From assembly GCF_000204055.1 (NCBI RefSeq), contig NW_006768778.1, positions 449,536 to 513,535 on the forward strand: a DNA stretch of 64,000 bases, written 5' to 3'. The stretch is from Melampsora larici-populina 98AG31 (lineage: Eukaryota > Basidiomycota > Pucciniomycetes > Pucciniales > Melampsoraceae). The notes beneath the pieces were generated by a model. It did no database searches. It was not told the origin of the DNA and saw only the letters and a list, made by a program, of their open reading frames with translations. The position numbers were made by a program, and so were the translations under genes. This document shows, piece after piece, positions 8,192 through 12,993 of this stretch (the first letter of the stretch is position 1; each line of letters begins with the position of its first letter).

Positions 8192-11100
8192 ATGAGCTCT
8201 TACTCCGACTTCGAAGAACAAGAAGACGACACTTACCAGCCCTATCAAGACGGCTACGAAGACAAGGTAGCTGACTCTGAGGAAGAGCAAGACCTCCCGC
8301 TTCCTAAGGCGGCGTCACAAAACTCAAAATCCACAACCCAATCCAACGGTTCTTCCACCATCAACTTGTCAAACAAATCGAATAAACCTGGCAAGAAAGG
8401 CAAGAAAACTTTTTCTCTGCCGCAGGACCGCGCCTCTTTCACCACTTTCATCGACGACGACACTACTGTGGACGACAAGGGTTATCCCCTTCTGCCAAAT
8501 GGGAACACCGTCTTTGTACGGCAACCAGACCAGAAACTCGTGAATTGGGGAACCTTCCAATTCACGTATACCACTTCTGGCGGCGGTACAGGCAAAGGCT
8601 CAGACTGGCGAACCATACGATTTACGTGTTTAGGAGTGTTCATCTGCAATGATCTGGATTGTCGATACCGTGGCTCACCCCCTACCTCCACCAATAAGCG
8701 ACTTGAATGGATTAGTGAGTGAGTATAATGCATACCACTTTCTTTTCTCTTTATTCATGTTCCTGACTCGCTGTTACGTTATGATCTCTTAGGCATCGGA
8801 AGTGCCCAGCGGCTCGGTGTCCTGGTGTTCTTCAATACCTCTCGTGTAAGAACACCATATGCCGCTTGGATGAGCATATACCCAGTGGTTGGGGTATAAT
8901 TCGCCACTCAGGCATCCATAACCACCCATGGCCTCGCCGTCCCAAACCTGACAAGCTTTCGCTTGGAAAACTTGGCAAAAAGGTTGTTGACAATCCAGAT
9001 GTGGGACCGCTGCGACTCAAGGTATGTCCATTCAACAACTAAATCTAATTGTTCAGGTTCTAACACTGACTATCCCTTTTAATGCATTAGGTGGGACGCG
9101 CCCCAGCTGGTAAACAAGAGATTGTCACAGCCACAAGCATTCACCCGGCTTTTGGGAACCTTCATAGGACTGGATATTATCGCCGCAAGCTGCTCGTGGC
9201 TGCTGGCGTGATTCCTGAAAAGAAAATTCCTGGGGCTGGAGACAGTTTCATTTTAGACATGATTCACTGGTCTAAGTGAGTGTATTCGGTTTCAACTTAT
9301 TTTATTTTATTTCTTCCAATTCTTACTTGGTCTTTGCATCTTTAGGCGTGGTCTAAGGATGATATCGTGCTCCTTTATGCCAAAGGACACTCATATGACG
9401 TTTCAAACCAATTGGATGGCTGGCCAATTACTGAGCCGCGATGAGGACGACAGCATATATAGAGGCGGACTACTCTCCGATGTTACTTACAAGTTTTTTG
9501 CAAATGGATATTTGCTCACCACTTCAATGTATAACAACGTCTTAAACCGATGGATTCCCATTCAACTTACATGGTTGAATGGTCTCACAGAAGAACATTA
9601 TGCCGCCCATTTCACTACTCTGATGCGACAAATGGAAGATGCTCGACTTGCCTCTCATATCACTAATGAGGAACGCGACATCCTTGTGCGTCAGGTCGTG
9701 GATTTCTCAGTTGCTCAAAAGAATGGATTCGTCATGGCATACATGGATGTGTTTCAAGAGCACGATCGTCAGGTGGCCCTATCCAAGCTTAAAGCATGTC
9801 ATGAACATTTTAGAGCTCAGGTAACCCGTGTCAAGCGAAATCGCGTCATAATACCTGCGGATGACGAGGTATGCATTTCATCTATATGTTTATTACAATC
9901 ACTTTGATTTTATTCTAATTATGTTCTGATTATGGTATTAATAGGGTACTTTTTCAAAGGCTGCTCTGGGTTTGTTGGATTTGGACCGGCCTGGAGGAAT
10001 GTCATTCGATGAAAAAATAACCAAGCTTCGCAAGGAATGGCCGAAAGCCAAGAAGTGGATTGAATGGTGGCAAGCAGCCGACATTCAGTCGATGCTTTTT
10101 AGATCAAGACCTCGTCAGATTGATGATGACGGGCTCTGCGACGATTTGCCTGCTACAACAAATGCGCAGGAGTCTATGCATCGTGTTTATTACATGATCT
10201 CGTAAGTCATTCTATCTATGTTTATCTATATTTTCTTATTTATTCATGTTCTTCTTTTATTTCATGATTTCCTCATTCCAGCGAAGGTAACTGCACTGTG
10301 CAAATTGGCCTAGTCCAACTCTACGCGCTGGTGGGGAGTCTCGAAAGAGACTATGATGATTTATGCAAGGGTGTTCCAATCGAGTACGGTGGCGAAGCTA
10401 AAAACTACAAGAAGGTAGCCCAACTTTTGGGCTGGTCTAAGAAAATGCGAAAACCACGAGACGTCAAGAACGACGGCCGCCCACCAGATACCACTGATGA
10501 ATTACTCGGCCGTCCGAAAAAGCTAGGAAGGCCTAAAGGCGCTGTCAATGTGGATCGCCATCCGGTTACCACATATCAAGGCTTTGTGGCATCTACAACC
10601 CCAGGGCGGCAGTTTCGATGTTGGCTTGATGCCATGACGGAATCCCTTTACGCAGTGCATACCCCACTCTGGTACCACAGGTCGAAGGGCAAATCCGTTC
10701 ACATATATGCGAAGCTGATGAAGTTTTTTTCTGCAAGATCAACCTGTGAAATGACAAACGTCGGCAGTATCAGATCAATATTATCTATCGCTCAGAACAC
10801 TCTCCACGCCGCCATTCAAAAAAGATGTCCGGGTAATTTCAATGACGACTGTTACTCTTCAGCTGACCAATACTTTGAGGGTATATTTGATCTCGAAACT
10901 CGACCCAAAAGCCCCTCTTCACCAGCTATGACTCAGACATTGTTTCGTGTCAACATTAAAAATAAATTAGTGTGCTCCAACCACAAATCACACATACTTA
11001 ACGAGTCAAACCATCGTAATTCAATTACTCTTAGTCATGAACGATTTGGAGGTCAATTTTCTTACTCAGATATTCCAGCACTTCTCCAGCAATGGACTTC

Positions 11101-12993
11101 GCCGTCTGGCCTTCAGCGAGTTTCAGCACGACACTGTTGCACCTGCAGAGGCCAAAAGGACGAAGGCCAATCAAATCCACCATACTTAGAACGATCTCAA
11201 CTACACTTGGACCCTCCACCCCCGCATTTACATATTAACCTGGATATTGCTTACTTGTTGGGTACTCGGCGTGAGGAAGCAATACGGATGATGGCTGAAG
11301 CTAACCTTCCTTATGAATTAACAATTCAAGGCGTCAAGTATTTGATGAAGGCTCGTGGATTTGGGGGTCAGGTCATTATTGGTGTAAAGTCGTCCAAACT
11401 GTCGGCGCCCTCACTGGTGTTTGGCTTAACAACGACCTGGTCAATGCCGGTGTTGCAACCTTGGTATCTAGCAATCTCAAATCCATCGGAGGCACGGCAC
11501 CGAATACGACGTGGGCTATGTACTCCCGCGAACCAACTGCTGAAGAATCAAAAGTAATCAAAAAATCGAAAGCCATCATTTATAAAGCAATTGGCCATAA
11601 GGTAAAAGGAGAAGGTTCATCTGGAGAAAAGGAGAAGTACATTGGCGCCGTCGCACCAGGAACTGAAAATACAAATACTTCTACACAATTGGAAGAATGT
11701 TTTGACTTTGCTTTGGATGGCGAAGCAGGCAAAGGCAAGGACGAGAAAGATTATTCCCAACAATTGGAAGAGTGCTTTGGCACTGAGGAAGAAGGTGAAC
11801 AACCGTGATTCTCATGTGAAAATTGTTTGCAACATTAACATTATTGTCTTTTTATTTTTGTTTAGCACACGATCCAAAAGATTATTCCCAACAATTGGAA
11901 GAGTGCTTTGGAATATTGGATGAGGAAGAAGGTGAGCAACATCATCGCCTGTCTTGTAAAATTCTTTAGAAACATTAACATTATTTCATTTTTATCTTTG
12001 TGTAGCACGCGAGACAGGTTCTTTATTTGATGATATCATGTCTCCAAAAGAATTGGAAGACATGATTGCTTTTGGTATGGATAAATCAGATACTGATGGA
12101 GAAGAGGATATTCCATTGGTCACGCTCTCCCCCAAAAAAGGTGAGTAGTGTCTCTTCTTTTTACACTTCTAAATTAAATTTCTAATTTTATGTTTCTTCC
12201 TCTCAGCCCCACCCGAGACAAAGACGGTGGGCGAAGCAGACCAAGAGCAGTGGGAGTTAGTAGAAGAAGAAGAAGTGATTCAAGAAGAAGTGATTCAACG
12301 TGAGTTGAAATCATCAGGTTTCCAAATCAAAAGACTGACATTGTGCTTGCTCGTGCTCTATATTGAGATAACATTGCAATAGCCAACATCCCGATTAGGA
12401 AGTATAACCACCATTCCGAATTGGTCATGGTATCCAACAACTCCTAACTCCTTCTCTTCGTTATAGTCATATGTTTTATATTTGTCCCAAAGCAGTGAAT
12501 GAGAGTCGCAATCCTGATGAGATATTATTAACCTATGTATCGGAAAGTTAGCTATATAAAAGACCGTTGTTTGTGTGCAGTAATTGTTTCCTCACTCAAA
12601 CTCTTATCTTGTGTCTTTTTTCATTCCGTGCTACCTTCCAACAGGTGCATATCTCACTTTCATCACTCATTAGTGATAGTAGCCTCAGCGCTCTTTTGAC
12701 ATCACTAATTCGTGATCCTTTACCAGGTGCATATCTCACTTTCATCACTCATTAGTGATAGTAGCCTCAGCGCTCTTTTGACATCACTAATTCGTGACCC
12801 TTTACCAGTCACGCGCCCATTCCTTACTTTATTACTCTATCTACCTTCAGCAAGTGTGAAAAAAATTAAGCTCAAGCTGAAAGGTTTCAATGTGACCAAG
12901 TCAAACATGTTACCAAATAACAAGGAAACTGATGATGTCACAGCTGCAGAGCCTATTCCATTGCGCAAGTCAAAGCGCAAGAGGAGGACATAG
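8192..12993 (+). CDS. MULE transposase with GCM-type zinc domain and C-terminal C19-like peptidase domain (frameshifted)
   Basis: Exons that keep phase are 8192-8718, 8793-9021, 9091-9275, 9346-9868, 9945-10201, 10282-11794, 11866-11931, 12006-12140 and 12207-12299. The ending beyond this is uncertain: either a stop near 12446 or a further basic exon ending RKSKRKRRT at 12993. The protein starts acidic and Ser-rich. A GCM-like zinc region spans exons 1-2 (FTCLGVFICNDLDCRYRG, KCPAARCPG, then HSGIHNHPWP). The MULE DDE core follows: LLSDVTYKFFANG with IQLTWLNGLTEEHYAAHF, then VVDFSVAQKNG and a CHEHF motif, then TTNAQESMHRVYY supplying Glu. After a basic linker with GRP motifs comes a USP-like domain with a Cys box (FRCWLDAMTESLYAVH, about 10615), a CCTC pair (about 11140) and a His box (GSGHYWCKVV, about 11370). 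Reaching the His box needs a one-base frameshift near 11360. The tail is acidic with repeated LEECF units. Confidence 0.78.
10560..11560 (+). other. C19 (USP-like) cysteine peptidase domain within the MULE protein
   Basis: Seen in sequence: CWLDA, corresponding to the USP Cys box with Cys as nucleophile; PHLHINLDIAYLL, like the USP strand before the His box; YELTIQGVKYLMKARG; GSGHYWCKVV with the presumed catalytic His; TGVWLNND with a candidate Asp/Asn; and the closing NTTWAMYSRE, resembling the USP end. Order and spacing (about 250 residues from Cys to His) match ubiquitin-specific peptidases. A one-base frameshift splits the domain between KARGF and the Gly-Ser-Gly-His block. Function is inferred: cleavage of ubiquitin or SUMO from transposase or chromatin partners is possible but untested. 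Confidence 0.62.
11866..11931 (+). repeat. Duplicated exon-intron unit in the MULE gene tail
   Basis: The exon 11866-11931 encodes KDYSQQLEECFG and an EEEG end, repeating the last segment of the preceding exon (about 11745-11794). The following introns are also alike: both start GTGA and contain AACATTAACATTATT before a T-rich acceptor. This indicates a tandem duplication of an exon with its flanking intron. Both copies keep phase 1, so the protein simply gains an acidic LEECF repeat. Confidence 0.75.
12644..12807. repeat. Tandem duplication, 82-bp period
   Basis: The unit beginning GGTGCATATCTCACTTTCAT occurs at 12644 and 12726 with almost no differences. Each unit has two short palindromes (TCACTcattAGTGA and TCACtaattcGTGA), which can also pair with each other. 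It lies in the 3' part of the MULE. The unit junction carries CAG/GTG, so intron-like borders or transposase binding are both conceivable. Confidence 0.85.

Follow-up and report, generated by a model that had tools for sequence, protein, structure and literature searches.

MuDRF transposons, reported in Melampsora larici-populina and other Basidiomycota, carry a GCM domain and a DDE transposase in one protein and produce 9-bp target-site duplications (TSDs); the main text of that report names these two domains alone, describes no C-terminal ubiquitin-specific peptidase (USP), and does not contain the words ubiquitin, peptidase, protease, Ulp1 or USP (Cantu et al., 2011; PMC3164196). Here we analyze a 64,000-nucleotide stretch (the window) of contig C14 (NW_006768778.1) in the 98.3-Mb genome of M. 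larici-populina 98AG31. Our results support the reading that the window contains a copy of a MuDRF-type DNA transposon (Mutator superfamily) whose single protein combines a GCM-like domain, a DDE-type transposase and a USP-fold cysteine peptidase. We describe its transposon anatomy, the fusion of the two enzymes in one exon, the predicted USP fold, and the conserved Cys-His-Asn/Asp triad and zinc-finger cysteines.

Judging from the relevant passages of each report, several other systems resemble this one in part. The Kaonashi/KIU elements of plants are also Mutator-type elements with a peptidase for ubiquitin-like modifiers, but theirs is an Ulp1 (C48) domain, carried by Mutator-like elements (MULEs) without terminal inverted repeats (TIRs), and it belongs to a VANC-type gene, which stands beside two other coding genes, instead of forming the C terminus of the transposase (PMC13317346). 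In Ginger1 an OTU or Ulp1 domain is fused C-terminally to a DDE transposase, and a Trichomonas protein mentioned in a single sentence joins transposase_11 to Peptidase C19; both differ in belonging to other transposase superfamilies, with no family-wide conservation of C19 described in those passages (PMC2836005). Helitrons and Helentrons bear deubiquitinases whose proposed role is to keep proteins required for transposition from being degraded, but these are of the VTD and OTU families and sit on rolling-circle elements (PMC9741609). USPL1 shares with our domain the USP fold, a Cys-His-Asp triad and a zinc finger, and has Phe335 instead of the Glu that contacts ubiquitin Arg72, which our domain also seems to lack, but it is a host enzyme, to which no special kinship of our domain was shown (PMC8983731). 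We found no published description of a USP in a Mutator-type transposase in the open-licence library searched; within the text available for a term search, a review of Mutator elements across eukaryotes returned no peptidase, Ulp1, GCM, ubiquitin or OTU (PMC6446971), and in that of PMC5821087 GCM occurs just as author initials.

Results

The peptidase motif order recurs in one frame across copies

An earlier note on this DNA, written from the sequence alone, had proposed a MULE transposase fused to a C19-type peptidase, and every motif string that it quoted is present in the window where it had placed it. An open frame at 10268-11557 holds the Cys box FRCWLDAMTESLYAVH, the CCTC pair and the PHLHINLDIAYLL strand, and a second frame holds the His box GSGHYWCKVV and the closing NTTWAMYSRE (codon positions in Table 1). 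Because the Cys box and the His box lie in different frames, the window copy is probably broken in one place between them, splicing at that place being less likely. The deposited model MELLADRAFT_85422 (P0026; window 8192-12258) omits 10679-10909 and 11270-11334, both of which are coding in relatives, and it therefore masks the frame break and lacks the thumb helices of the peptidase.

Searching the same genome with the 10268-11554 piece gave at least 98 matches, the window included, a lower bound because scoring was confined to the best candidates. Among the 30 loci examined (L009-L038, where L033 overlaps L037 and L012 is a near-identical copy of L014), a regular-expression count found 15 or more with the full motif order in an unbroken frame. 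The order seen in the window is therefore not due to chance, and the proposed fusion in one gene holds. Protein searches returned 113 distinct proteins, which overlap with these loci, the same genome being in both sets; the USP profile of the family was found in 86 of the 113 (ten of these had rows in the profile's own alignment), and the transposase and USP profiles occurred together in 56 of the first 100.

The peptidase has a predicted USP fold

The intact copy L033 matched Pfam UCH (PF00443) from the Cys box to the His box, with 31.8 bits against a cut-off of 23.9 (E = 1.4e-7). When the predicted structure of the family domain, which has the thumb, palm and fingers of USPs, was compared using Foldseek, the matches were USPs, and solved USPL1 chains were present among the 50 matches listed. 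An N-terminal Cys box is followed by a C-terminal box with the His and an Asn or Asp, which is the order of USP/C19 peptidases, and the C19-type fold proposed by the note is borne out by the L033 match and the fold comparison. It was by these two routes alone that the USP was seen: neither the window piece nor the family profile nor L033 retrieved a USP from PDB sequences, and a scan of 24 members against NCBIfam gave nothing relevant. Two pieces of host USPs searched against PDB at E <= 1e-8 gave 0 and 1 matches.

The peptidases already known from Mutator and Ginger transposons are Ulp1/C48 (Kaonashi-type) and OTU, and we considered whether one of these, as in plant MULEs and Ginger1, had been misread as a USP. 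None of the 24 members matched C48 or OTU in Pfam at E <= 1, the structural matches were USPs, and the Cys box stands upstream of the His box. In C48 peptidases the His box comes before the Cys box. With the Pfam result, the box order and the fold all pointing away from it, this reading is scarcely credible, and we rejected it.

Separately, the Foldseek viral library includes USPs of giant viruses, from which we draw no kinship, and the UniRef name of the relative P0084, 'USP domain-', means that automatic annotation had already seen the domain.

The catalytic residues are conserved

At the 30 examined loci the catalytic Cys was conserved in all 30, the His in 28 of 28 readable copies, and the position three residues after the conserved Trp was Asn or Asp in 28 of 28. 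Retrieved proteins covering the respective columns agreed (Cys, 69/70; His, 71/71; Asn/Asp, 69/70), and the sole protein without the Cys, P0069, is a deposited model that lacks the entire Cys-box stretch. Three cysteines of the fingers were near-invariant (67/67, 67/69 and 63/69), as would be expected of the zinc-binding cysteines of USPs. The note had named a fold unlike that of USPs, or a Cys and His that varied among intact members, as outcomes that would count against it; the fold matched USPs, and both residues are conserved in the intact members.

For the peptidase domain of 15 intact loci, the ratio of nonsynonymous to synonymous divergence (dN/dS) had a median of 0.14 and a maximum of 0.23 over 16 of the 105 pairs, those with dS from 0.05 to 1.5 (62 pairs were too diverged at silent sites). 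The nearly identical pair L012/L014 gave 2.6, on almost no synonymous changes. By these ratios the domain is under purifying selection.

One position of interest in USPs seems to depart from the ubiquitin-directed pattern. As reported in the part of PMC8983731 that deals with this contact, ubiquitin-directed USPs have a Glu (E258 in USP28) that touches ubiquitin Arg72, where SUMO-specific USPL1 has Phe335. The putative equivalent in our family, placed by topology and by eye on the QDAxEF helix before the first finger strand, was acidic in 0 of 70 sequences (L in 22, F in 18, G in 12), and the preceding position was Asp in 62 of 70. The Glu that contacts Arg72 thus seems to be absent from the family, and for this reason the earlier wording, 'ubiquitin-like modification', is apt. 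The non-acidic residue is a lead that points towards SUMO or another modifier.

Together, we consider it highly probable that the domain is a USP whose catalytic activity has been conserved; intact members would work as isopeptidases, taking ubiquitin or a ubiquitin-like modifier off their substrates. Several observations weigh on the other side: just 5 of the 24 family members matched UCH at E <= 1; the seven window pieces, searched separately with the frame break left uncorrected, had no Pfam match at E <= 1; the Arg72-contacting Glu seems lost; and the P0069 model has no Cys-box stretch. The latter two, together with the existence of catalytically dead USPs, are what might be expected of a non-cleaving module that retains the fold for binding a modifier or for structure. 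We regard such a module as improbable, because conservation of the triad to the degree observed is hard to explain unless catalysis is needed. We likewise give little credence to a peptidase that cuts a peptide bond in the transposase protein or in other substrates instead of removing a modifier, since the substrates for which the C19 family is known are Gly-Gly isopeptides. In favor of such cutting, viral deubiquitinases often double as polyprotein processors, according to the passage that treats them in PMC9741609.

The element resembles MuDRF in its target-site duplications and domains

The 9-mer ATAGTCTAA occurs only twice on the plus strand of the window, directly outside the inverted ends of the element. 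These ends align with a score of 44, and 200 shuffles reached at most 28. An inverted-repeat search within the window missed the TIR, which was seen by comparison with other copies: a wider part of the left end (7418-7598) is shared with the left end of copy L039, and the inverted ends are longer in L039 and L041 (182 and 142 bp, 79% alike). All four copies compared have a perfect 9-bp TSD, as MuDRF does (ATAGTCTAA in the window, GTAAAATAC in L039, GTAAAATAT in L041 and, read from the flanks, ATATTTAAT in L040). The duplications of L039 and L041 hint at an A/T-rich target preference; those of the window and L040 have only A/T richness in common with them.

Within the transposase, the first presumed catalytic Asp (D1) was present in 23 of 24 and the second (D2) in 25 of 26 readable loci of this genome, and in 69 of 73 and 76 of 78 retrieved proteins, respectively. 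In 40 deposited relatives with both domains the motif of the presumed Glu read TN[AG]QES in 33 and SNAQES in 1, with no pattern match in 6. The GCM DNA-binding domain that characterizes MuDRF is also present.

The label MULE fared less evenly. The seven window pieces had no match to PF10551 (MULE), and an hhalign comparison of the family core exon with the PF10551 MULEs of the same genome gave 0.1%, so from sequence tests we claim no kinship with MULEs; a Foldseek search with the transposase model had zero matches at E <= 0.001. The label draws its support from the work of Cantu et al. (2011), from the 9-bp TSD and from structural matches, which are weak. The element fits MuDRF, a known branch of MuDR, which refines the naming in the note.

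Two further observations concern the transposase lineages. A scan of viral contigs using the transposase alignment yielded 44 pattern matches, with no relative among them. When L033 (1489-3684) was compared with the PF10551 MULEs of this genome (L002-L006, L008), which are otherwise unlike it, its tail was seen to end in a CCHC-like knuckle with a CPFCEDLLPSAPSERL stretch that closely resembles CPFCDDPLPSQPS, the consensus of their tails, as if transposon lineages had swapped tails.

The fusion appears to predate the rusts

Named sources among the 113 proteins were Melampsora and Puccinia (graminis, triticina, striiformis and coronata), with the exception of P0113, a 1759-residue protein of Schizophyllum amplum. 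P0113 and P0112 (594 residues) align with the family from the end of the transposase across the NDGRP linker into the Cys box (hhalign probabilities of 98.3% and 99.2%). The Cys box of P0113 scored 29.1 in hhalign (probability 41%), where the best shuffle gave 20.2. When the C-terminal half of the family was aligned locally with a 310-residue stretch by hhalign, a His-box match emerged 280 residues downstream of the Cys; its score of 20.9 lay narrowly above the best of 60 shuffles (20.3), and its probability was just 2.5%. The family USP profile had no match in P0113.

Because the Schizophyllum relative has the same Cys box and linker, the peptidase would have come with MuDRF before the rusts, and the fusion appears to be older than they are, although a single species with a low His-box score is thin ground for its age. 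The note had instead suggested a convergent capture, which would mean that rust MULEs recently took up a host USP gene. That all named matches but P0113 are rust proteins is in keeping with this idea; the linker and Cys box that P0113 and P0112 share with the rust family, and the weak His-box match of P0113, make it unlikely. Of the earlier proposal, then, the C19-type partner stands and capture within the rusts is improbable. An hhalign comparison of the family with the host protein L045 gave 0.3%, and as L045 by eye has no Cys box, it is a poor comparison.

Features of the window and of related copies

Table 1. Positions of the element and its coding parts in the window.
Feature	Positions	Strand	Remarks
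Left 9-bp TSD, ATAGTCTAA	7397..7405	.	
Whole MuDRF-type element, 6434 bp	7406..13839	+	bounded by 9-bp TSDs and inverted ends
Left TIR, best-matching 32 bp	7414..7445	+	28/32 identical to right end
Exon 1: acidic N terminus, first half of GCM-like zinc domain	8194..8719	+	deposited model P0026
Exons 2-3: second half of GCM-like domain (HSGIHNHPWP), linker	8791..9276	+	interrupted by stops at about 9040-9090
DDE transposase core exon	9344..9871	+	D1 of SDVTYK 9479-9481, D2 of VVDFS 9701-9703; catalytic role by eye
Exon with presumed catalytic Glu of TNAQES	9945..10202	+	Glu 10170-10172
Last large exon, frame A: transposase end, NDGRPPDTT linker, GRPKG AT-hook-like stretch, peptidase start	10280..11557	+	
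Frame A peptidase parts, in order: USP Cys box, thumb helices, zinc-finger cysteines, PPPHLHINLDI	within 10280..11557	+	Cys 10619-10621; CCTC 11135-11146
Frame B: USP His box GSGHYWCKVV, Trp, Asn, Asp, NTTWAMYSRE, acidic tail	11317..11808	+	His 11374-11376; Trp 11422-11424; Asn 11431-11433; Asp 11434-11436
Tail exons of MELLADRAFT_85422 (P0026), repeated S-x-QLEECF motif	11865..12258	+	
Right TIR	13800..13831	-	
Right 9-bp TSD, ATAGTCTAA	13840..13848	.	

The S-x-QLEECF motif, with three repeats in the window gene, is related to a C-terminal tail motif, hydrophobic-x-x-[LMI]-F-x-S-[DA], which may be a docking motif. Noted for window 11317-12258 and the tails of L013, L019, L029, P0002, P0003, P0009, P0024 and P0097, the latter motif occurs in 9 of the 52 tails listed, with VKPLFCSD, IRDMFNSD, LEDLFMSD and LKEIFASD as examples. 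In the 3′ part of the element (12642-12808), an 85-bp unit is present in two direct copies that are 98.8% identical. A short way outside the element, on the minus strand, an open frame at 5953-6198 looks by eye like a Copia-type reverse transcriptase. Elsewhere in the genome, L033 and L037 are tandem family copies on C64, with match starts about 1.5 kb apart.

Discussion

A USP-type peptidase is well supported as a standing part of the transposase of this Mutator branch. Through it the transposon may manipulate the modification system of its host. In the mechanism that we envisage, the GCM domain would carry the protein, peptidase included, to the transposon ends, where the peptidase could act on the transposase complex or on modified host proteins such as chromatin or repair factors; removal of the modifier would let the transposase escape marking for destruction or repression. 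We propose this sparing role because the two enzymes are fused, because the active site is conserved, and because of the precedents of plant MULEs (Ulp1), Ginger1 (OTU or Ulp1), the Trichomonas C19 protein and Helitrons (VTD or OTU), for which a like sparing role has been put forward, and we hold it tentatively, with somewhat more doubt than belief.

A bolder scenario, which we consider doubtful, is that MuDRF already carried a USP-fold isopeptidase when rusts and mushrooms had not yet split, and that the target of this enzyme changed from ubiquitin to SUMO or some other modifier. If so, two unrelated peptidases, one of USP fold in fungal Mutator-type elements and one of Ulp1 fold in plants, would have been recruited for one task, that of freeing the transposase, or the silencing machinery at transposon ends, of a modifier.

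Peptidases of ubiquitin-like modifiers recur in unrelated transposons: plant MULEs bear Ulp1, Ginger1 either OTU or Ulp1, and Helitrons VTD or OTU. With its conserved USP joined to the transposase, an abundant and diverse fungal Mutator branch adds a further fold in the same superfamily as the plant elements. Because the catalytic site is under strong constraint, the role of the peptidase in transposition may be approached by a single Cys-to-Ala change in one protein.

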